DNA of 45,244 bases from Deltaproteobacteria bacterium (lineage in GTDB: Bacteria > JAEEML01). The stretch is taken from positions 1-45,244 of the forward strand of contig JAEEML010000088.1 in the NCBI GenBank assembly GCA_016283195.1, given 5' to 3'. The position numbers were made by a program, and so were the translations under genes. How positions within the stretch are numbered: the first letter of the stretch is position 1; every line of letters starts with the position of its first letter. Under the pieces are notes generated by a model. The model was not told the origin of the DNA, made no database searches, and was given only the letters and a program-made list of their open reading frames with translations. Below are positions 1 through 12,063 of this stretch, piece after piece.

Positions 1-1077
1 AATAATGCCGTGCGGCGAATGGATCAGATGATCCATCTTTTTGTAATTTTCCGGCGAAAAGCCGAGGTCGGTAAGATCGAGCAAAATGGAGCTTCTGTCT
101 AATAGACGCATGGTAATGCGCTCGCCGTGGCTGGTGGGCACGGTGGCAGTACGGATATCAATATCTTTACCGGCCATCTTAATGCGAATACGCCCGTCCT
201 GGGGCAGACGCTTTTCGGCGATATTGAGCCCGGCCATAATCTTAATACGCGAAATCATTGAAGATTGTATTTTTTTGGGCGGGCGGATTTTTTCATGCAA
301 AATACCGTCGATGCGGAAGCGGATGATAAGGTCGCGCTCCATTGGCTCCACATGGATATCGGAAGCATGCTCTTTGATAGCCTGGGAGATGAGCGAGTTG
401 ACAAGGCGGATAATGGGCGCTTCGTCTTCGCTGTCGAGGAGGTCTTTGGTCTCTTCCAGCTCATGGGCAAAGCTATTCAAATCATCGTCGTTTTGAATAG
501 CTTCCATGGTGGCTTCGGCCTGCGCCGAGCGGCGGTCGTAAACACCGTTAATAGCATTTATAATAGTTTCCGAGCGCGCCAGCTTTAAAGCACAGGGGAG
601 GCCAAAATGGTCAGAGAGCTCATCTATAGCGCCAAGCGCATAAGGGTCGCTTATGGCTACCTCGATAGCCCCGTTTTGCTTTGAAAGCGGTAATAATTTG
701 TGCTTTTTGCAAAAGTTAATGGGAAGACCTGCGACCAGCTCATCGGGAATATCTTTTATTTCAATAGAGCTGATTATCGGTAATTCCAGCTGCAGCGCAA
801 TAGCTTTTAAAACAGTCACTTCGCCAGCGAGCTTCTTTTCTAAAATAAATTCAATTTGCGCCGAGGGCGAAAGATTTAAAAGCTCTGCTTCATCCTCTGG
901 AGTAATGGCATTAAGCTCGCCCATAGAGTGCAAAATAGCCGGCAACGGCATAGTGGCATAACTGGGCACCTCTACCATAGCCGCCGGTTCCGGGGTTATA
1001 GTGGCTACTTGGGGAAGCGGCATATTTACTACCGTTTTTTCTTCCGCCGGGGCCATATTTTCCACTACATCGCTCAT
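1..1077 (-). CDS. gspE: Type II secretion ATPase GspE, N-terminal part (runs off left edge)
   Basis: This is an open minus-strand frame of 359 codons with no stop before the window edge. It would be the cytoplasmic hexameric ATPase that powers type II secretion. The visible part holds a Pro/Ala-rich leader, a GspE N-terminal (MshEN-like) region with the typical hydrophobic pattern around residues 50-150, and the start of the ATPase domain (SDIHVEP, RIDGILHE, and LPQDGRIRIK-type motifs). It stops at HSPHGII, immediately before where the Walker A loop is expected, so the catalytic core lies outside the window. The start ATG (1075-1077) overlaps the gspD stop in an ATGA, which implies translational coupling. 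Family assignment is firm; a PilB/MshE-type ATPase is unlikely because the partner is a GspD-like secretin. Confidence 0.9.
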   Translation of the reverse strand, partial: MSDVVENMAPAEEKTVVNMPLPQVATITPEPAAMVEVPSYATMPLPAILHSMGELNAITPEDEAELLNLSPSAQIEFILEKKLAGEVTVLKAIALQLELPIISSIEIKDIPDELVAGLPINFCKKHKLLPLSKQNGAIEVAISDPYALGAIDELSDHFGLPCALKLARSETIINAINGVYDRRSAQAEATMEAIQNDDDLNSFAHELEETKDLLDSEDEAPIIRLVNSLISQAIKEHASDIHVEPMERDLIIRFRIDGILHEKIRPPKKIQSSMISRIKIMAGLNIAEKRLPQDGRIRIKMAGKDIDIRTATVPTSHGERITMRLLDRSSILLDLTDLGFSPENYKKMDHLIHSPHGII

Positions 1078-3740
1078 GGAGCGGCCTCACTTTGAGCATT
1101 GGTAGTAGCCTCACTTGTTGCTGGTTGCGACGTTTCAGAGGGAGCTTGTTCCACTTCGCCGGCTCCTTCATCAGCTTTGGCGCCATGCACTTCTTCGGTC
1201 ATTTCGGAAAATTCGGCTGTCTCCATTTCCGGCATAATAAGCGTCTCTTCGCCGTTGCCTTCGCCGCCGTTTTCAATGCGCTTCATCTCATTTTCTATTT
1301 CGGCCAGCAGTGTTGCGGCCATGCCGTTTTTACGAGCATAATTGACATAGGGACGATAATCTTGCGAACCGCCGTAAAACATCTTTTCAAAGCGCTGATG
1401 CTCCAGCAATTTACGCTTGGCGATAGCCTCCATATCGCTTTTGTCTCTAATAATGTAAGGCGTTAAAATTATAAGCAAACTAACCTTTTCTTTTTCCCAA
1501 GAGCGAGTTTTGAAAAGCCAGCCGAAAATGGGAATATTGCCAAGAAGCGGAATTTTAGATTCCGACTCGCGGTAACGTTCACGAATGAGGCCGCCGATTA
1601 CCATGGTTTGCTGATCATCCGGGGTAATAACGGTTTTGGTCTTTCTGGTGGCGGTCATCGGCTGGCCGGTAGCTTCATCTTTACCAATCAAATCTTCGAT
1701 AGAAAGATCAACTTCCAGGCGCACTTTACCAAACTCATTGATATGCGGCGTAAGACTTAGTTTCAAAGAAACATCAATGCGGTCGGTACGAGAATAAAGC
1801 CCGGCATAAGCCGAAAGAGCCGAACTGGCACTGCTACTTAAACCGGCTAAATTATTCAAAGTTGAGCCATAGCCTTCTTGGAAGGGGATTTTTTGTCCTA
1901 CTTCAATCTCGGCTTCTTCGTTGTCGGTTACTGTAATATGCGGAGTAGAGAGAATATTGGAATTGGTATCATTTTCCAAAGCTTTTAAAACCACACCGAT
2001 ACTGGGAATAGTCACCGAAGTGCCGCCGATAGTGCCGGTAAACATCTCACCCAAAACGCCGCCTATAGCTCCGCCAAAAATATTAAAGAGGTCGGCAACC
2101 CCGGAGGCGCTGGTGATGGCCGTCATGGTGGAGTTACTGGAAGATTGAATAAAACCTATACCTTGCGAGAGATTTTTATTGCCGGAACCTTTATCAAAAG
2201 GAATACCGCTATGCCAACCGGTACCGAATTGGTTGTTTTTGCCAACTGTCACTTCCATAATAGCCGCTTCGATAAAAACCTGCAGGCGCGGGCGGTCCAG
2301 CTGTTCTATAACTTTTTTAAGGCTTTTATAATCGCGGGCGGAGCTCACAATCACCAAGCTGTTGGTGGCTTTATCGGCGGTGATTTTTACTTCGCCCTCA
2401 AAAAGCGCCGCGCTATCGGCCGGCCCTTTTTTATTATTGGCTGCCTTCTTGTTATTTCCGCTATTAGAACGCCCCTGAGCCAGCGAAGAGAGCGTATTGG
2501 CTACATCTTCGGCAGTAGCGTTTTTTAAATAATGAACGCGAATTTGGCCTTCATCTTCGGTGAGCTGCACATCCAGCTTGCTCACAATATCCATAATGGG
2601 AGCAAAACTGTCATGGCCGGCCAGGATAAAGAGCTGATTAGTGCGATCATCGGGAATTATTTTGGAAATATTTACCGAACTGCCGACAGAGTCCTCCGCC
2701 GGTTTATTGCTGTTTTTACTATTGCCGCTATTAGAGGCCGGCTTTTTATCCACATCATATATTTGCTTTATTTTTTCCGCTACTTCGCTGGCAATACCGT
2801 TTTCTATGGGAATAATTTGCAACTCTTCCCGGCCGCCGGCTTGGTCCAGAGTATCAATAATACTTTTTATGCGGTGAATATTATTGCCATAATCGGAAAG
2901 AATCAGAGTATTGGTGGGCTGGAAGACGGTCATCGAGCCGTCAGAAGAAACCATTCCTTTGATAATATTAGATATATTTTGAGCATCAACATATTTAAGT
3001 TGCAATAAAATAGTTACCAGAGAATCGGTCCAAGGCACATTTTTGGCATCGTCGTAATAAGTAGGAATCGGTGATTTAATAGCCTCTTTAGAAGAGGTTA
3101 ATTTATAAAATTTGCCGGAGCGCACTAAAGTTAAATTATTGATTTCAAGAGCCGACAAAAAGGCTTGGTAGGCCTCATAAGCTGTAACCTGAGTAGGGCA
3201 CAAAATGGTGATTTTTTGTCCTTTTATTTTTTCAGGCACAATGAAGTTGCGCCGCGTAATATCGCTTATAGCTTTAATAACATCTTCTACGGCCGCTTTA
3301 TTAAAATCAAAATAAAATTTACCTTTGCGGCTTCTGGCGGCGTAGTCGATGGTGGTTTCCTCTTCGCCGCCACCCCCTTGAGAGCCTTTATTAGCTGCAG
3401 AAGAGGCGGCCGGAGCGGCAGCTTGGGCTACTTTGGTGGGCTCACTCGCGCTGCTGCTACTGGCGCTCTCTTCGTTATTACTTTCGTCTTCTTTGGTTTC
3501 TGCTTCGGCAGCATTCCGGAATCTGGCCGCTCTTTTCACTTTTAGCGAATCAATAGCATGCTGACGGCCCGGAGACAAACGCCTAGCGTCACGGTTTAAA
3601 ATATGGCGCGGGGGACGAACTCTGTTTTCGCCCTCCTCTTCCTCTTGAGCTTTCAGCGGTGTAGCCACTAAAACAGTGGCTAAGAGAGCAAGTAGCGGCC
3701 AGGCAGGTCCAAACGGTATTTTACGAAAATGCAGGAACAT
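1074..3740 (-). CDS. gspD: Type II secretion outer-membrane secretin GspD
   Basis: This 888-residue protein would form the outer-membrane channel of the type II secretion system. It has a cleavable signal peptide (residues 1-31, ending PLKA before QEEEE), a charged low-complexity segment to about 130, then N0 (about 140-215), N1 (about 240-300), N2 and N3 ring domains separated by Asn/Ser/Lys-rich linkers. The secretin beta-barrel domain follows (about 485-760), with the conserved VIGGLI and IPLLGNIPIFGWLF motifs. An unusual 90-residue acidic, Ala/Glu-rich tail follows the barrel; pilotin binding there is possible but not shown. The start has an AGGA Shine-Dalgarno nine bases upstream. It sits directly behind a candidate sigma-54 promoter and overlaps gspE by four bases. 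Confidence 0.93.
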   Translation of the reverse strand: MFLHFRKIPFGPAWPLLALLATVLVATPLKAQEEEEGENRVRPPRHILNRDARRLSPGRQHAIDSLKVKRAARFRNAAEAETKEDESNNEESASSSSASEPTKVAQAAAPAASSAANKGSQGGGGEEETTIDYAARSRKGKFYFDFNKAAVEDVIKAISDITRRNFIVPEKIKGQKITILCPTQVTAYEAYQAFLSALEINNLTLVRSGKFYKLTSSKEAIKSPIPTYYDDAKNVPWTDSLVTILLQLKYVDAQNISNIIKGMVSSDGSMTVFQPTNTLILSDYGNNIHRIKSIIDTLDQAGGREELQIIPIENGIASEVAEKIKQIYDVDKKPASNSGNSKNSNKPAEDSVGSSVNISKIIPDDRTNQLFILAGHDSFAPIMDIVSKLDVQLTEDEGQIRVHYLKNATAEDVANTLSSLAQGRSNSGNNKKAANNKKGPADSAALFEGEVKITADKATNSLVIVSSARDYKSLKKVIEQLDRPRLQVFIEAAIMEVTVGKNNQFGTGWHSGIPFDKGSGNKNLSQGIGFIQSSSNSTMTAITSASGVADLFNIFGGAIGGVLGEMFTGTIGGTSVTIPSIGVVLKALENDTNSNILSTPHITVTDNEEAEIEVGQKIPFQEGYGSTLNNLAGLSSSASSALSAYAGLYSRTDRIDVSLKLSLTPHINEFGKVRLEVDLSIEDLIGKDEATGQPMTATRKTKTVITPDDQQTMVIGGLIRERYRESESKIPLLGNIPIFGWLFKTRSWEKEKVSLLIILTPYIIRDKSDMEAIAKRKLLEHQRFEKMFYGGSQDYRPYVNYARKNGMAATLLAEIENEMKRIENGGEGNGEETLIMPEMETAEFSEMTEEVHGAKADEGAGEVEQAPSETSQPATSEATTNAQSEAAP

Positions 3741-3795
3741 AGCATATCCTTTGTTTGCATTGTGTCGGCATCCCTAAAATGCCGATTTGCTTATA

Positions 3796-3811
3796 TGCAA
3801 TAATCAGGCCA
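3796..3811 (-). promoter_or_regulatory. Candidate sigma-54 (-24/-12) promoter of gspDE
   Basis: On the minus strand the site reads TGGCCT-GATTA-TTGCA. The invariant GG and GC are separated by exactly ten bases, as in the consensus TGGCAC-N5-TTGCW. It predicts a transcription start near 3785 and a 5' leader of about 45 bases before the gspD ATG at 3740. No other intergenic region I inspected carries a GG-N10-GC match of this quality. The paired palindromes upstream raise confidence that it is used. Confidence 0.65.
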
Positions 3812-3876
3812 ATTTTAAAAAGCAAAAAATTGTTATAAGTTGTTGCAGGTTAGCTTTATTTTTTTCAATTTGCCGC

Positions 3877-3934
3877 TGTGACAAAATGTCAATTATCTCT
3901 GCACCAGCGGAAGATTGTGCGACATTTTGTCACA
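3877..3934. promoter_or_regulatory. Paired 14-bp inverted repeats: candidate enhancer-binding-protein sites
   Basis: Positions 3877-3890 (TGTGACAAAATGTC) and 3921-3934 (GACATTTTGTCACA) are perfect reverse complements. Each arm is itself an imperfect palindrome of the form TGACA-N3-TGTCA. Their centres are about 44 bp apart (near four helical turns) and lie about 100 and 142 bp upstream of the predicted sigma-54 start site. That is the usual place for NtrC-type activator sites. No T-tract follows the stem on either strand, which argues against an intrinsic terminator for the upstream gene. Confidence 0.6.
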
Positions 3935-3953: not shown

Positions 3954-6900
3954 TTAAAAATGGTAATTGCGGCTATTGATAGCGCCGGCGACAGATTGAT
4001 CGCCGCGCAGGTTATAAATGAGGTCGAAATAGAGATGGCGTTCGTCAGGATCAATAAAGGGGTCATCCTGGGAAGTGCCAAGTTCATAGATAATATGCAG
4101 CCTGTCAGCCGGAATATGGACACTGTAACTCCCTATTCTGTTCATACTGGCGTTCATAAGATCATTAGCTGCCACATCGTCATCAAAGAAGCTTTTCTGG
4201 CCATCAAAAGCACTATTATATATACTATCTGAAATATTGGAAAAGCTTTCGTCGCAGAGCATATTAAGGCCCATCAGGCTATCCACCAGTGTCAGTTGGC
4301 TCTCGCTTTCCAGGCCGGCAATAGCCGAGCTCTTGTTATATGGGCTACTGTTGCCATAAATGGTGGAGCCGGAAACAATGCCTTCGCTATCTACAAGGCA
4401 AAGAGCCGTGCCGCAGTTTTCCACATCATAACATACGCCTTTTTCCACCGGAGCGCCTAAATAGTTATTGCCAAGCTGGACATTGTAAAGAGCCAGCGGG
4501 CCGGAGCTGTTATAAATAGCGCCGCCGGCCAGTAATCGCGCTGCAGAAGGTTCGGTGGAAACTGCGCTGTTTTCATCAAAAACGACATTGGTTAAAAGCA
4601 CACGCATGGCCCTTTCACTGTAAATAGCACCGCCCTTGGCTATATTTTGTTTTGTTACAGCGCTGTTTTTCACAAATGAGCTGTCCTGCACCACCAGGCG
4701 GCTATCATTGGTATTGGTAATAGCGCCGCCCCAAGCTTCGTCATTTTGTTCATTTATATTGCGCGAGAAATAGGAACCGCTGATAACTGCCAAGGCAGAG
4801 CTATTATTCATTAAAACAGCTTCCAGCTTACCGGCCACAAATTCGCTTATACCGCAGTTTTCGATATAAAGAGCCGATCCTTCCTCATTATCGGCAAAGG
4901 CGCCGGGCTCCTTATTGCCCATAAAGGTGATATCGTGGAGCGAAAGGCGCTTCATGGTATTGATAGTGAAAAGCGGCTCATTGGCAGAAGGCGTATATAA
5001 AATAGTGGTGCGCTGTTCATAAAGATTTTCGCCACGTTCGGAAATACTCTTTTCAGAACCTTTAAAGGAGCCATAAACATCAATAGTGGCCTCACCGCCG
5101 AGATCGAGCAGGATATTTCTGTCAGCCGTATAATCACCACCGGCTATCCAAATAGCTGCCTCTTTACAGGCCGCGTCTTTAAGCAGATTATAAGCCAAAT
5201 CAAAGGCCGCATTGACAGTAGCCAGCGCCTCTTCCCAGCTCTGCCCGCTCTGCCCGTCGTCTCCTTCTGTGCGCACATAGACGATACATGGTTCAGTGAG
5301 TTCCAAACAGGTAGGTTCCATATTGTCATCATAATAACAAACTGTTTCATCTTTATGGTAACAATCGCCGTCAAAATTCTCGCAAGTAGGCTTACAGGCA
5401 ATATTTCTCCCGTTTATACTATCCGGATAACCAGGCTCAAAGGAAAGGTGCTGACCGCCCGGCGGGCAAACCTGGACATCGCCGAATCTGTCAAGTGCAT
5501 AATAGCAGCCTTTGCCGGCAAGACCACTATCACATACCTGCAAATCATTGCAGGAGCAGCTGGAGCAAGAAGAGCCGTAATAGCCGCCGGTACATTCGCT
5601 ACAGGTGGTATTGCCTTGCCAATTGGTATAACAATTGCAGGAACCATCACCACCGGTGCCCTGTCTACAAGAGCCATGACCGCTACAAGGATTAGTAGGC
5701 CCGCCCTGGCAGGTAATTGTGCACGAAGGACCGGCATAGCCACTGACACAAGCATTGCAGGCAGCTCCCGTCCAATGACCCGGACCAGTACAGGAGCAAG
5801 TGCCGTCCTGCTGACAGGTACCGTGACCACTACAGGGATTAGTAGGCCCGCCGGGACAGGTAGTTTGACAATTTGAGCCAACATAGCCGGGTTTACAAGT
5901 AGCGCAAGCCGGAGCCGCCCAGTTGCCGTTACAAGAACAAGTGGGGGTGGTCACATTTTTACCGTCATGGCATTCACCACGGCCGTTACAGGGATCAGCG
6001 GCGCCGCCGGGGCACTCTAAAGAGCAATCAGGGCCGCCATAGCCGGGTTTACAATCTTCGCAACCGGCAGCCAAATCCCAATTGCCGGCACAAACATCAC
6101 AAGCAGAACCGCTCCAATGGCCAGAGCAAGAACAGGTGGGCGTTACATTCTTACCGGCCGTGCAGGTACCATGGCCGTTACATTGGTTAGCAGCGCCGCC
6201 GGGGCACTCCAAAGAGCAATCAGGGCCGCCATAGCCAGGTTTACATTCATTGCAATCTGTCCCAGTCCAATTGCCTTTGCACACATTGCAAGCCGGGCCA
6301 GCCCAGTTGCCGGTACAAGAACAAGTGGGCGTCACATTTTTACCGGCAGAGCAGGTACCATGGCCGTTACATTGATTAGTAGCACCGCCGGGACATTCGG
6401 CATTGCAATCGGAGCCGCCATAGCCATCTGCGCAGGTATCACAAGCAGTGCCGGTCCAATGGCCGCCACATTGTGTGCAAGAGCCATTACCATTTAGGCC
6501 ATCAATGCAGGAGCCGCCTTTACATTGCGCGCTGCCGGTTCCGCCGGGGCAGGTATTTTCACAATTTTGGCCATATTTGCCATCTATACAATCAGCACAG
6601 TTCTGCCCCACATCAAAGCCGCTTTGGCAACTCGTACAGTTACCGTTTCCCCCAGTGCCACCATTACAAGTACCATGGCCGTAACATTGCGCGCTGCCGG
6701 TTCCGCCGGGGCAGGCATTGGAACAGGTTGGCCCCCAGTAGCCATCAGCGCACTGAGTACAACTTGGCATGGCCCAGCCGGTTTTACACTGGGTACAATT
6801 TGATTCGGTGGTGAAATTGCCGCTGCAGGCACCACAATTGCCGAGGCCATGTACACCGTCATCACATTCCGACTGACCATTGCAAATACCGCCCGCGCTG

Positions 6901-9026
6901 CCGAGTCCCTGGCAGGTGCCGGTACATTGGGGGCCAAAGTAGCCCTCTTTGCAATCGTTGCAATTAGCCTCTGCACTCCAGTTGCCACTACAATTAATGC
7001 ACTTGCCTTCACTGGTACAGGTGCCGCGACCAAAGCAGATTCCCTGACCCTCAGCCACGCCTGGGCAGGGCAGACAACTTGGCCCATAATAGCCATTTGC
7101 ACACTCATTGCAGGTAGCGCCAGTATAATTAGCAGCGGTACAGGTACACTTGGGTTTGCCGTTAGCTATGGAGCAATTACCATGGCCGTTACAGGTATTG
7201 GGCGTGCACTTGGGTTCACAAGTGCCATTTTGGTCTTCATCCTGATAATCACTCTGACACTTACAATCAACTTGGCCGGTAGTGCTATTTATATAGCATT
7301 CGGCACCGGTCGGGCAGCTATGCTGGGCAACTTCACAAGTTGGCATACAAGTGCCGTCATTGTTAGCGTCCTGATAACCAGCGGCGCAGGCAGTACAAGA
7401 GCCGTTGGCATCTAAAGCGTAGCCAGTATCACAATTACAGCTATTACTGGTTTCGCCGCCGCAAGTGCCATGGCCGTTACAAACATTGGCAGCTCCGCCC
7501 GGGCAGGGTTTACATTCCGGGCCGGCATAGCCGGTATTGCACTTATTACATTCTATTCCTGCCCAGCCGGTATAGCATGAGCAGCTATTGCTGGTTTCGC
7601 CGCCGCAGGTACCATGACCGTTACAGGCATTATCCGCGCCGCCCGGGCAGGGAGTACATTCCGGGCCGGCATAGCCGCGCGCGCACTTTTGACAGTTATC
7701 ACCACTATAGTTGGGCTTACATTCGGTGCAGTATTCACCTTGCCAATGGTCGGCACAGAGGCAGGTACCATGGCCATCTTTTCCTTCATCGCAGGTGCCA
7801 TGTTCCGAGCAGGCACAAGGCAGGCAATCCGGGCCATAGTAACCGGGTGCGCACTCATTACAGCTCACACCGGCCCAGCCTGGCAGACAGGTGGCACAAT
7901 TGCTATTTTTATCAAAGTGGTTAAAACACTCGCATTCACCATTGCCGGTGCGGCCATCCAGACAAATGCCGTGACCATTGCAAACCCCATTCTCACTGCC
8001 CAGCCCCGGACAGCGCCCTGTACATTCATCATTAAAATAGTTGGCTACACACTTATCGCAGGCCGGGTAGCCGGTAAAATTGCCTTCACAGCCGTTGCAA
8101 TCAACACCGGCCACGCCTTCATCACAAACACAGGAACCGTCAGGCTGGCATTTTCCTTTATTATTACAAGGGGTTTCTGCTCCGCCAAGGCATTCGATTT
8201 GGCAATTATCGCCCACATAGCCGGGCTTACAAACCGCACAATCGCTAGCGGCATCCCAATTGGTAAGACAAAGGGAGCAGGAAGTTTCTATATCATAATG
8301 ATTCAAACAGGTTGTACAGCCGCTTTCCGCTGTAAAATGGTTATTGCAGGTACAAACGCCATCGCCATCTACGCCATCGTTACATTTGCCGTGGCCACCG
8401 CAAACAGCGCCTTTCTCTACTCCCGGGCAAAGGCCGTCGCACTTTTTGCCAAAATAGCCATCTTTACAAACACTGCAATCTTCACCGCCCCAGTTTCCGT
8501 CGCACTTACAGGAGCCATCACCGTCAACACCATCATCACAAACACCGTGGCCGCTGCAAATTTCGCTATCAAAACCGGGACATTTTCTCTGGCACTTTTC
8601 GCCGTAGCGCCCGGCTTCACAGCGCATTTGGCAAATGGATTTACCGCTGGAGTTTTCTTTGCAAACCCAGCCTTGCTCTAAAACACAGGAAGCGCTGCAA
8701 CCGTCGCCGGCTTTATTATCGCCATCATCACAATCTTCCAGGCCCTCTTTGCGCCCATCACCGCACACAACGGAAGTGCCATCAATACAAACACTATCTT
8801 CGCAATGCTGGGTATTAATGTCACATTCGCTATTGTCTGTGCATATTTTATGACAAGTGCCCAAAGCGCATACAAGGCCGGTTTTACACTCATCACTGTT
8901 CTTACAAGCTGTGCCTTCGGGCAAATTATTGGCTATTCCGTTTATGGTGTTGTCAGGATCTCCGCAACCGCTTGTCACCAGCAGGACCGCCATACTCAAA
9001 AAGAGTGCCAATTTAGAAAATCGCAT
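3954..9026 (-). CDS. Giant Cys-rich lipoprotein: EGF-like array plus beta-helix domain
   Basis: This 1690-residue protein is probably a surface-exposed lipoprotein. A signal peptide ends in a lipobox-like TSGC (Cys21). A short Cys-rich motif and a DUF4215-type module (CGDG...EDCDDGDN...GDGCS, about residues 85-115) come next. A very long EGF/laminin-like array (about 130-1160) is built of CNGHGTC, C-x-C and GYxGPxC units. After a Cys-rich linker, residues about 1245-1690 look like a right-handed beta-helix (YVRTEGDDGQSG, IWIAGGDYTADR, many short Asn/Ser-rich turns), as in 'choice-of-anchor Q' proteins. The ATG has an AGGAGG at ideal spacing. It lies 40 bases after its paralogue at 9067-12063 and is probably cotranscribed with it. 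Adhesion or binding is a reasonable guess; no catalytic motif was found. Confidence 0.85.
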   Translation of the reverse strand: MRFSKLALFLSMAVLLVTSGCGDPDNTINGIANNLPEGTACKNSDECKTGLVCALGTCHKICTDNSECDINTQHCEDSVCIDGTSVVCGDGRKEGLEDCDDGDNKAGDGCSASCVLEQGWVCKENSSGKSICQMRCEAGRYGEKCQRKCPGFDSEICSGHGVCDDGVDGDGSCKCDGNWGGEDCSVCKDGYFGKKCDGLCPGVEKGAVCGGHGKCNDGVDGDGVCTCNNHFTAESGCTTCLNHYDIETSCSLCLTNWDAASDCAVCKPGYVGDNCQIECLGGAETPCNNKGKCQPDGSCVCDEGVAGVDCNGCEGNFTGYPACDKCVANYFNDECTGRCPGLGSENGVCNGHGICLDGRTGNGECECFNHFDKNSNCATCLPGWAGVSCNECAPGYYGPDCLPCACSEHGTCDEGKDGHGTCLCADHWQGEYCTECKPNYSGDNCQKCARGYAGPECTPCPGGADNACNGHGTCGGETSNSCSCYTGWAGIECNKCNTGYAGPECKPCPGGAANVCNGHGTCGGETSNSCNCDTGYALDANGSCTACAAGYQDANNDGTCMPTCEVAQHSCPTGAECYINSTTGQVDCKCQSDYQDEDQNGTCEPKCTPNTCNGHGNCSIANGKPKCTCTAANYTGATCNECANGYYGPSCLPCPGVAEGQGICFGRGTCTSEGKCINCSGNWSAEANCNDCKEGYFGPQCTGTCQGLGSAGGICNGQSECDDGVHGLGNCGACSGNFTTESNCTQCKTGWAMPSCTQCADGYWGPTCSNACPGGTGSAQCYGHGTCNGGTGGNGNCTSCQSGFDVGQNCADCIDGKYGQNCENTCPGGTGSAQCKGGSCIDGLNGNGSCTQCGGHWTGTACDTCADGYGGSDCNAECPGGATNQCNGHGTCSAGKNVTPTCSCTGNWAGPACNVCKGNWTGTDCNECKPGYGGPDCSLECPGGAANQCNGHGTCTAGKNVTPTCSCSGHWSGSACDVCAGNWDLAAGCEDCKPGYGGPDCSLECPGGAADPCNGRGECHDGKNVTTPTCSCNGNWAAPACATCKPGYVGSNCQTTCPGGPTNPCSGHGTCQQDGTCSCTGPGHWTGAACNACVSGYAGPSCTITCQGGPTNPCSGHGSCRQGTGGDGSCNCYTNWQGNTTCSECTGGYYGSSCSSCSCNDLQVCDSGLAGKGCYYALDRFGDVQVCPPGGQHLSFEPGYPDSINGRNIACKPTCENFDGDCYHKDETVCYYDDNMEPTCLELTEPCIVYVRTEGDDGQSGQSWEEALATVNAAFDLAYNLLKDAACKEAAIWIAGGDYTADRNILLDLGGEATIDVYGSFKGSEKSISERGENLYEQRTTILYTPSANEPLFTINTMKRLSLHDITFMGNKEPGAFADNEEGSALYIENCGISEFVAGKLEAVLMNNSSALAVISGSYFSRNINEQNDEAWGGAITNTNDSRLVVQDSSFVKNSAVTKQNIAKGGAIYSERAMRVLLTNVVFDENSAVSTEPSAARLLAGGAIYNSSGPLALYNVQLGNNYLGAPVEKGVCYDVENCGTALCLVDSEGIVSGSTIYGNSSPYNKSSAIAGLESESQLTLVDSLMGLNMLCDESFSNISDSIYNSAFDGQKSFFDDDVAANDLMNASMNRIGSYSVHIPADRLHIIYELGTSQDDPFIDPDERHLYFDLIYNLRGDQSVAGAINSRNYHF
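5930..6440 (-). repeat. 192-bp-period coding repeats in the EGF array
   Basis: Near-identical blocks encoding a 64-residue unit (CPGGA..CNGHGTC..GKNVTPTCSC plus a GNW and GYGGPDC segment) recur with a 192-bp step; for example, the same GGGCCGCCATAGCC string occurs at about 6031 and 6223. The nucleotide similarity exceeds that of the other EGF modules, so these copies arose by recent duplication. Confidence 0.65.
7439..7690 (-). repeat. 144-bp-period coding repeats in the EGF array
   Basis: A 48-residue unit (GGETSNSC, TGWAGIEC/TGYA, CPGGA..CNGHGTC) is present in adjacent copies; identical GGTTTCGCCGCC strings occur at 7449 and 7593. This is a second repeat family, of different length from the 192-bp family in the same gene. 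Confidence 0.65.
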
Positions 9027-9066: not shown

Positions 9067-12063
9067 TTAGCCTCCGATATCGGGGAGATATAGTGCGGAC
9101 TCAAAGGGACCGGCGGCAGATTTATCGTTCATAAAACGCGCCAAGCCATTTAAATCAAAGAATATTCCATATTTATAAAAATCGGCGGGCAAGAAATCGG
9201 GCACCAAATATTCTCCTGGCGTCATATTTAACTGAATATCTTTTTGCGTCATCACCTCTCCCAAGGCTCTATCAATATCTTCGGCATCAAAATATGAAGC
9301 GGCGGTTTCACCAATACCAAGTATATTGGCAAAGTTATCTCTATCATCCTTATTTTGAGCAAAAACCGAATTATAAACATTCATTTTTGTGTCGGCACTA
9401 TAAAGGGCTACGCTGCCGGTATTATTATTTACCAAAAGCCCATATAAATTAACCGGCAATGTGCTTTGGGTATATAAAACGGATCCTTCATGTTCACTAT
9501 CACTCTTAACGCTATTTTCACTAAATTGTAAATTATAACCATAGAGGCTGGCTTTATCATAAAGCGCTATAGCTCCGCCCTGAGCAAGGCGCTCACCGAT
9601 AAGCCTATTTTTATTAAAAACACTGTTAATATAAACATTACGGCTAACTTCTCCGGCAAAAATCACTGCTCCACTAGCTTTATCAGCCAGCAAAGAATTA
9701 CCCATAAATGAGCTGTTAACAATATGCAAATGGCCAAGATTAAAAATAACCCCGCCAAAACCTGGCCCGCCATCAGAAGTAATGCCGGATATTCCGGACC
9801 CGGAAATAATGAGGCTGGCATCAGGAGCTATCTCAACAAAAGGCGAACTAGATCTTTCGGTTTCAAAAGCGGATATATAGGTATTTTCAAGAACTACTGT
9901 TGATGCTCCTTTGGCTTTTATTAACTTTTCGGTTTCATTTGTAGCGGCGCTCATGCCGATGGAATCAAGCAGCAAATAGCTCTTATTGTTAAGTTCCGCA
10001 AAATATGAGGCTTTAAGAGCAATAATAGCGCGGGATTCTTCACTATTTTTTCTTTCGCCGATATTCTTTTCTTCGCCGCGGAAGCCGCCGTATATATAAA
10101 GGCGCATTTCATCGGCCCCATGTTCTTCGGGCAAAAACGGTTTGCTCATTACATAATTGCCGGCCGTTAAAAGGATAAACATATCACGGCAAGCAGGAAG
10201 GCGTTCTGCCCAAAGAGCCATAGCCCGATCAAAGGTGGCTACGGCATTAACCCAACCTGAGCCGTCTTTGTCATCATTGCCATCTTTTTGATTTACAAAA
10301 ATCCAGCACTTGTCTCCGCTATCGGCCATGGAAAGGCACACTGGTTTGCCCTCAGCTTGGCGTTCATAATAACAGGCCGAATAATCCCCTTCTTTTTGCG
10401 TAAAACAGCCGCTTTCGGCACAAGTATATTGACAGTTAACGTTCTCCCCGCTTTCCGGCTCATAATAATAATGTTGCAATCCCGGCGGGCAAACATGGCC
10501 GTATTCTCCTTCTTCATAATAGCAAGTACCATCGTTTGCCTTGCCATCGCGGCAAGTGGCCCGTTCCGGGCAATCACAGGGAGTGCAACGTGAGCCGTAA
10601 TAACCGGGCTTACAGGTATCACAGACCTTATTGTTGCCATTGTTACCTGTCCAGCCCTCATCACAAGTACAGGTGCCGTCTTTATCTTTGCCATCATTAC
10701 ATTTTCCGTGAGTACCGCATTGGCAGGCCACACAATTTTCACCATAGTGACCGGAAGCGCACTCGTTACAATCAGGACCGGTAAAGCCGGGTTTACATTC
10801 ATTACAAGCCTGGCCATCCCAGTTGCCGGTGCAGGCACAGGTTGGATTCACATTTAGGCCGGCAGAACAGGTGCCGTGGCCGTTACACTGAGCAGCAGCG
10901 CCGCCCGGGCACTCTAAAGAGCAATCAGCGCCGCCATAACCGGCGTCACATTCGGTGCAACCGTCACCGGCAAAACCGGTTTTACATTCCGCACAATTCT
11001 CGCCGGTAAAATTGCCGCTACATTTACAGGAACCGTCGCTGTTACAAGTTCCGTGCGGAGCACAGGGGCAAAGCTGACAATTCTCACCAACATAACCTTC
11101 CGCACACTCATTGCAATTCGGGCCGGTAAAGCCCTCTTTGCAACTATCGCAAGCCGGACCGGCAAAATTGCCATTGCAAGTACAAGTGCCGTTACCGCCC
11201 ACGCCGTCTGAACAGGTGCCGCGAGCCGAACCGCCGCAGGGGCCGGTAGCAGTGCCGGTGCCGGGGCAGCTGCTTGCGCATTTTTCGCCATAATAACCGG
11301 CAATACATTCATTACATGAAGCGCCGGTGAAATTACCGCTACAACCGGAACAATCAAGGCCCAAAACGCCGTCGTTACATTTACAGGCGCCGGTGCCAGC
11401 TACACCGCCGTCACAAGTTCCCTGGCCGTTACAGGGATTTTCGGCACCGCCAAGACATTCATTTGCGCAGTTAGGGCCAAAATAACCGGCCTTACATTCG
11501 CTGCAATCGGCACCGTCCCAGTTACCATGACATTCACAAGTGCCGCTGCCTTCCACACCGTCATCACACACCCCATGGCCACTGCAAATGGCACTGTCAA
11601 AACCGGGGCATTTTTGCTGGCATTTTTCGCCAAAGCGGCCGGGCTCGGCACACTTCTCGCTGCAAACGGTTAAGCCTTTTTCGTTTTCTTTGCAGCGCCA
11701 GCCTGTTTCCAATTTGCAAACAGAGCTGCAACCGTCGCCGCTGGTGTTGTTGCCATCATCGCATTCTTCATTATTGCCTTCGCGATAGCCGTCACCGCAA
11801 ACCGAGGCAGCGCCGCTAACACAAATACCAACTTCATCGCAATGCTGGGTATCGACATTGCAATCGCCTTTATAGGTGCATAGTTTATGGCATTTCCCGT
11901 TAAAGCAGTAAAGGCCGCTGCGACATTCCGAAGTACTCTGACAAAGCTCGTCTTCTGGCAAGTCTTTAATTTTTCCCGGCTCTTCTTCGACATTATTGCC
12001 GCAGGCAAAACACAAGAAAGGCAGCGTTATTACTAACAAATTCGACATGCGCATCTTAGCCAT
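9067..12063 (-). CDS. Cys-rich EGF-array lipoprotein with C-terminal beta-helix domain (paralogue)
   Basis: This 998-residue paralogue of the 3954-9026 product has the same architecture with a shorter array. A signal peptide ends with a Cys in FACG (Cys21, weak lipobox). The same N-terminal Cys-rich head follows (TQHCDE, then CGDGYREG..ECDDGNN..GDGCS). EGF/laminin-like modules run over about 130-530, and a beta-helix-like region from about 588 to the end begins with WIFVNQKDGNDDKDGSGW. A GGGAG Shine-Dalgarno precedes the ATG. It appears to be the first gene of a two-gene lipoprotein operon transcribed from the AT-rich gap at 12064-12254. Location at the cell surface is inferred from the lipobox and disulfide-rich modules. 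Function is unknown. Confidence 0.83.
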   Translation of the reverse strand: MAKMRMSNLLVITLPFLCFACGNNVEEEPGKIKDLPEDELCQSTSECRSGLYCFNGKCHKLCTYKGDCNVDTQHCDEVGICVSGAASVCGDGYREGNNEECDDGNNTSGDGCSSVCKLETGWRCKENEKGLTVCSEKCAEPGRFGEKCQQKCPGFDSAICSGHGVCDDGVEGSGTCECHGNWDGADCSECKAGYFGPNCANECLGGAENPCNGQGTCDGGVAGTGACKCNDGVLGLDCSGCSGNFTGASCNECIAGYYGEKCASSCPGTGTATGPCGGSARGTCSDGVGGNGTCTCNGNFAGPACDSCKEGFTGPNCNECAEGYVGENCQLCPCAPHGTCNSDGSCKCSGNFTGENCAECKTGFAGDGCTECDAGYGGADCSLECPGGAAAQCNGHGTCSAGLNVNPTCACTGNWDGQACNECKPGFTGPDCNECASGHYGENCVACQCGTHGKCNDGKDKDGTCTCDEGWTGNNGNNKVCDTCKPGYYGSRCTPCDCPERATCRDGKANDGTCYYEEGEYGHVCPPGLQHYYYEPESGENVNCQYTCAESGCFTQKEGDYSACYYERQAEGKPVCLSMADSGDKCWIFVNQKDGNDDKDGSGWVNAVATFDRAMALWAERLPACRDMFILLTAGNYVMSKPFLPEEHGADEMRLYIYGGFRGEEKNIGERKNSEESRAIIALKASYFAELNNKSYLLLDSIGMSAATNETEKLIKAKGASTVVLENTYISAFETERSSSPFVEIAPDASLIISGSGISGITSDGGPGFGGVIFNLGHLHIVNSSFMGNSLLADKASGAVIFAGEVSRNVYINSVFNKNRLIGERLAQGGAIALYDKASLYGYNLQFSENSVKSDSEHEGSVLYTQSTLPVNLYGLLVNNNTGSVALYSADTKMNVYNSVFAQNKDDRDNFANILGIGETAASYFDAEDIDRALGEVMTQKDIQLNMTPGEYLVPDFLPADFYKYGIFFDLNGLARFMNDKSAAGPFESALYLPDIGG

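Follow-up and report, generated by a model that had tools for sequence, protein, structure and literature searches.

Paired palindromes upstream of a putative sigma-54 promoter at the type II secretion gene gspD of a deltaproteobacterium

Type II secretion is usually viewed as constitutive, or as controlled by quorum sensing or growth phase. The arrangement of a sigma-54 promoter with a pair of upstream sites is textbook knowledge. In Escherichia coli and Proteus, GlrR (QseF) activates glmY and rpoE from sigma-54 promoters (PMC6075780, PMC8745638). The sites of PilR have GTCT elements near TGT-N11-AGA (PMC6058289). In Desulfovibrio vulgaris, several enhancer-binding protein motifs combine TGT with ACA half-sites, the spacing of which varies; a type III secretion system is furthermore under a sigma-54 activator (PMC4641369). 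In Plesiomonas shigelloides, an rpoN mutant shows repression of the T2SS-2 genes, so that an influence of sigma-54 on type II secretion has a precedent (PMC9743648). A direct site of a bacterial enhancer-binding protein (bEBP) ahead of gspD was not found in the literature searched, which covered few subscription papers. The same literature held no described operator with the sequence reported below, in agreement with an earlier reading of this DNA from its letters alone (the sequence-only reading), which had known of none.

The gspD promoter region

The window, i.e. the whole stretch of 45,244 nucleotides analysed here, is contig C131 of a 3.22 Mb genome in 190 contigs. The gspD gene is the first of its operon, and gspE runs off the left end of the window (Table 1). 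This end overlaps contig C103 by 141 identical bp, and gspE continues there. It is followed, closely spaced and up to about C103:9248, by gspF, the four N-methyl pseudopilin genes gspG, H, I and J, and gspK, L, M and an N-like gene, the last four assigned by position and sequence inspection. No promoter-sized gap was seen between gspD and gspN across the window and C103; the promoter described here thus appears to head the genes of the entire apparatus, and control of type II secretion is its natural reading. Directly upstream of the operon, two very large cysteine-rich lipoproteins with EGF-like repeats are encoded on the minus strand (3954-9026 and 9067-12063), possible substrates of type II secretion.

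The gap between gspD and the preceding gene comprises 213 bp of non-coding DNA. The sequence-only reading had placed a GG-N10-GC element ahead of gspD, and this element is present on the minus strand. It shows two mismatches to TTGGCACGNNNNTTGCA (13 fixed consensus bases), with GG-N10-GC in a TTGGCAC-N5-TTGCA-like context, and is the sole GG-N10-GC within 220 bp upstream of gspD. A scan for sigma-70-like promoters in the same 220 bp found none. TTGGC-N7-TTGCA occurs once in the window against 0.62 occurrences expected by chance, so that the -24/-12 box by itself is weak proof. Counted from the -12 element, transcription is predicted to start at about 3786. The predicted 5' UTR contains a small hairpin, TCGGCAT..ATGCCGA (fold -11.1 kcal/mol, z -2.3), and the Shine-Dalgarno sequence is AAAGGA. 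Towards gspD the order of features is palindrome (3926), palindrome (3885), AT-rich stretch, box, UTR hairpin, Shine-Dalgarno sequence and ATG (3740). An Rfam search of the window gave no match.

Upstream of the box, a 14-mer is present in two copies of opposite orientation and 100% complementarity; the sequence-only reading had given both its coordinates and its sequence correctly. Allowing up to two mismatches, the 14-mer has two matches in the window against 0.16 expected, a number reached in none of 100 shuffles. Each arm overlaps an enhancer-like palindrome. The computed centres of the palindromes (about -99 and -140) correspond to the distances of about 100 and 142 bp from the predicted start noted before. 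Two perfect TGACA-N3-TGTCA cores had been claimed as well: the proximal core is indeed perfect, the distal one starts with C and thus has one broken base. The palindromes are 41 bp (about four turns) apart, lie on approximately the same helix face and are dyad-symmetric, as in the UAS of a bEBP. A CRP-type site, TGTGA-N6-TCACA, is ruled out by inspection, the spacing being N7. The sites read GACA-N3-TGTC and not TGTC-N10-GACA as for GlrR/QseF, and they are two isolated palindromes, not a phased TGACA array of at least three units in steps of about 10 bp.

Table 1. Positions of the features discussed. Coordinates without a contig handle refer to the window.
Feature	Position	Strand	Remarks
gspE, 5' part	1..1080	minus	runs off contig; from translation
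gspD, type II secretion secretin	1077..3740	minus	first operon gene; Pfam type_II_gspD_N0, Secretin_N, Secretin
gspD predicted 5' UTR	3741..3786	minus	~46 nt; inferred from -12 element
Putative sigma-54 -24/-12 element TTGGCCTGATTATTGCA	3812-3796	minus	GG-N10-GC; 56 bp 5' of gspD
14-mer arm TGTGACAAAATGTC	3877-3890		100% complementary to the other arm
Proximal enhancer-like palindrome TGACA-AAA-TGTCA	3879..3891		centre ~-99; overlaps arm 3877-3890
Distal enhancer-like palindrome CGACA-TTT-TGTCA	3920..3932		centre ~-140; overlaps arm 3921-3934
14-mer arm GACATTTTGTCACA	3921-3934		100% complementary to arm 3877-3890
EGF-like repeat protein gene	3954..9026	minus	large, cysteine-rich, lipoprotein-type signal; ORF list and inspection; stop ~20 bp before distal palindrome
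lpxC	C174		downstream of sigma-54-linked N4 site
Lipoprotein gene	C69		downstream of sigma-54-linked N4 site
Lipoprotein gene with Fib_succ_major	C136		downstream of sigma-54-linked N4 site
Signal-peptide (secreted) protein gene	C151		downstream of sigma-54-linked N4 site
Membrane peptide ORF, 40-50 residues	C68		downstream of sigma-54-linked N4 site
Candidate sRNA	C149:7290-7434 (L248)	minus	box GTGGCACGCTACTTGCA; palindrome upstream; no ORF
TGACACAC array promoters (L196-L211)	C7:15702, C186:2561, C69:2366, C19:4651, C68:4446, C72:5800, C82:46611, C88:28066

Recurrence of the palindrome in the genome

The genome was scanned for TGACA-N3/4-TGTC patterns, and the resulting site list is complete for these searched patterns only. 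TGACA-N3-TGTC occurs at a sigma-54 promoter in front of gspD only. All other copies of it are located in coding sequence, beside a TetR gene (C179/C44) or, on C97, upstream of a gene that lacks a sigma-54 box, and a regulon with the exact N3 form was rejected. The N4 form TGACAAAAATGTC, with a spacer 1 bp longer, is strongly over-represented genome-wide. The 14-mer TGACAAAAATGTCA occurs 17 times with at most one mismatch against two for the reversed control, the highest count among the 59 genomes compared (0-12 in the others).

Intact A/T-spaced palindromes are found in ten intergenic regions, i.e. those of gspD, C28, C68, C69, C109, C136, C149, C151, C167 and C174. A sigma-54 box (up to two mismatches) follows 72-160 bp downstream in seven of the ten, at about 100 bp in C151, against a background of 8 in 1520 positions (0.5%; binomial P ~1e-14). 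In the reverse test, 94 sigma-54-like boxes were gathered without regard to palindromes; five of them have a palindrome 30-200 bp upstream, compared to 0/93 for the mirror-image interval downstream. Since the N4 form emerged during the search, the motif had not been preset; this choice does not, however, affect the co-occurrence with sigma-54 boxes. The genome-wide co-occurrence, combined with the mirror control, provides good evidence for the palindrome as the UAS of an enhancer-binding protein. Recurrence of the gspD site near other GG-N10-GC elements, proposed as a check in the sequence-only reading, is accordingly seen with N4 spacing (the seven of ten regions) and not with the exact N3 form. 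As N3 is restricted to gspD and N4 to the other sigma-54-linked sites, a different protein may bind at gspD. The pattern YTGGC-N7-TTGCW has 115 matches genome-wide versus four for the reversed pattern (about 25 expected), many of them inside genes, so that counts of sigma-54 promoters from the pattern alone are inflated. Among 40 distant gspD-like loci, searched in a set without a genome of the same phylum, none possesses such an arrangement; one of them (L045) has a lone sigma-54-like box.

The genes downstream of the sigma-54-linked N4 sites are listed in Table 1. The candidate sRNA of C149 is about 145 nt long, non-coding, and ends in a strong hairpin with eight U; its loop of 9 exceeds the limit of 8 in the terminator scan, which leaves the hairpin unflagged. 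Its Rfam matches are all sub-threshold. The lipoprotein genes of C28, C167 and C69 have a common 5'-UTR hairpin, GTCGC...GCGAC, just 5' of the Shine-Dalgarno sequence.

The palindrome regions of C28, C109 and C167 lack GG-N10-GC at a usable position. C28 and C167 possess two palindromes each, ahead of lipoprotein genes, and the palindrome of C109 precedes a gene with a diacylglycerol kinase domain, adjoining ftsZ. Either the regulator is not restricted to sigma-54 promoters, or a further factor uses the same site. These three regions are the main weakness in reading the sites as one regulon. They favour the alternative that an ordinary, non-bEBP factor uses the palindromes as its operator at promoters of different types, the gspD sigma-54 promoter being driven by another bEBP through sites not recognised here. 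A short symmetric palindrome resembles the operators of many dimeric regulators, and a similar TGACACGGTGTCA pair adjoins a TetR-type gene in the same genome. However, seven of the ten regions are at enhancer distance from a sigma-54 box, which is unexpected for a sigma-70 regulator, and the sites keep 70-160 bp from the box, clear of the core promoter. An ordinary factor of this kind is in our view unlikely.

The two TGACACGGTGTCA palindromes by the TetR-type gene (C179:22765-22814 / C44:3058; L013, L002) are 37 bp apart. This pair shares the half-site but is an unrelated operator.

Candidate activators and phased arrays

The sequence-only reading would have been refuted by a genome without rpoN; RpoN is encoded, in one copy (C180, Sigma54_DBD E 1.7e-57). 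Seven proteins possess full Sigma54_activat and HTH_8 domains, five of them response regulators and two with an FHA domain. The NtrC-like regulator to be looked for thus has seven full bEBPs as candidates. Their NCBIfam names lie below the equivalog cut-offs, among the matches listed. L021 (C184:14267), whose neighbour is a 6TM_PilS-domain kinase, is regarded as PilR, and L020 lies beside an LTXXQ (ZraP/CpxP-like) protein as well as a kinase. L022 (C121:21545), whose gene is divergent from a lipoprotein gene, is the sole case among the seven in which the DNA-binding domain has GlrR/QseF as its best NCBIfam model; against the GlrR equivalog it scores 354 bits (cut-off 763). No operator site indicative of autoregulation is present near any of the bEBP genes examined. 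Our best guess for the gspD activator, and a tentative one, is the GlrR/QseF-like response regulator L022, since GlrR recognises TGTC/GACA half-sites and regulates functions of the envelope (PMC8745638, PMC6075780). PilR at C184:14267 comes second, with a rather low probability, and the remainder is spread over the other five.

A second class of sigma-54 promoters is characterised by TGACACAC arrays in 9-11-bp steps, 74-160 bp upstream of eight near-consensus sigma-54 boxes (Table 1). The genes behind them are two comEA-like genes, comM and five Rpn-type PDDEXK_2 nuclease units; three of these five units reach or nearly reach a contig end, and the gene was judged there by near-identical upstream sequence. 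The pilA gene (C189, L102:993-1057 and 1417) has a near-perfect sigma-54 box and, about 400 bp upstream, a TGACA/TGTCA array in 10-bp steps, located beyond a C-rich repeat that resembles an insertion. The array class is probably a PilR-type DNA-uptake (competence) regulon, separate from the palindrome class, with a half-site, and possibly an activator, common to both. A minor-pilin operon (C104:20030-20046, minus strand; L103, L110) has the sigma-54 box TTGGCACGCTTTTTGCT; its upstream repeats, CTATGCAAAAA, are of a different kind, which suggests yet another activator.

PilR could also activate gspD itself, a special case of bEBP control, the TGACA half-site being that of the pilA and competence arrays; a single regulon would in that case comprise type IV pili, competence and type II secretion. 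In keeping with this, pilA combines its sigma-54 box with six TGACA/TGTCA units, among them TGACA-N5-TGTCA, a bEBP (L021) lies beside the 6TM_PilS kinase, and TGACACAC arrays occur at eight other sigma-54 promoters. Yet the arrays consist of direct repeats of about 10 bp, whereas gspD has A/T-spaced palindromes that stand alone; among the promoters examined none combines the two classes, if the single N5 palindrome in the pilA array is disregarded. Activation of gspD by PilR is hence judged improbable.

The inverted 14-mers might instead act in RNA and terminate the transcript of the gene at 3954-9026 or stabilise its 3' end, for the region folds as a 15-bp stem (-27.1 kcal/mol, z -4.75) just past the upstream stop codon. 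But no T-run follows the stem, and the scan for intrinsic terminators reports none; each arm is itself palindromic, and elsewhere single copies without inverted partner stand ahead of genes, not behind them. We give an RNA element very little credence. A coincidence of box and palindromes is scarcely credible: TTGGC-N7-TTGCA alone is expected at the chance frequency given above, but the palindrome pair arises in 0/100 shuffles, and the genome-wide P (~1e-14) and the mirror control (0/93) speak against it.

Proposed mechanism and comparison with described systems

Judged from sequence, gspD is likely to be under sigma-54 control by a bEBP acting via the palindromes. The proposal of the sequence-only reading that type II secretion is switched by an enhancer-binding protein is supported by the presence of rpoN and bEBPs, the seven of ten regions, the empty mirror stretch and the position at the operon head. 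That the operon would be switched on, and not constitutive, follows from established sigma-54 biochemistry.

We infer activator binding, looping and activation, and with them the identity of the activator and a binder shared by N3 and N4 sites, as follows. The gspD-gspN operon would be transcribed from the sigma-54 promoter, where RNA polymerase with sigma-54 would wait in the closed state. Dimers of the enhancer-binding protein would occupy the two TGACA-(A/T)3-TGTCA palindromes on nearly the same helix face, the AT-rich DNA in between would be looped, and the activator would touch sigma-54 and open the promoter at the expense of ATP. Via TGACA-(A/T)4-TGTC it may also act on lpxC, the lipoprotein and secreted-protein genes and the candidate small RNA, which would amount to an envelope/export regulon. 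A single enhancer-binding protein with the operator TGACA-(A/T)3-4-TGTC, co-inducing the complete type II secretion operon, LpxC as the committed enzyme of lipid A synthesis, surface lipoproteins and a small RNA, is an undescribed regulon that we consider possible, at somewhat less than even chance. If it is true, the export machine and its envelope would be made together. With a direct sigma-54 enhancer at gspD, one signalling protein would control the whole export machine in an all-or-none, ATP-gated manner, and the common operator defines a concrete regulon whose targets are named, with seven named candidates for the activator.

Among the described systems, Plesiomonas shigelloides offers a transcriptome effect only, with no operator or activator described in the accessible text (PMC9743648). 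Desulfovibrio vulgaris differs in half-sites placed 9, 11 or 12 bp apart, and no type II secretion target is seen in the accessible part of that source (PMC4641369). PilS-PilR at pilA is alike in its sigma-54 promoter and NtrC-family activator, and a PilS-type kinase is found here by L021, whereas the gspD sites are isolated palindromes and pilA of this genome has phased arrays. The GlrR consensus is TGTC-N10-GACA (PMC8745638); here, in contrast, GACA-N3/4-TGTC has the half-sites reversed in order and a short A/T spacer. GlrR is nevertheless alike as a response-regulator bEBP with a TGTC/GACA half-site and with envelope homeostasis and small RNA targets (PMC6075780, PMC8745638), and the putative regulon described here, like that of GlrR, combines envelope genes with a candidate sRNA.
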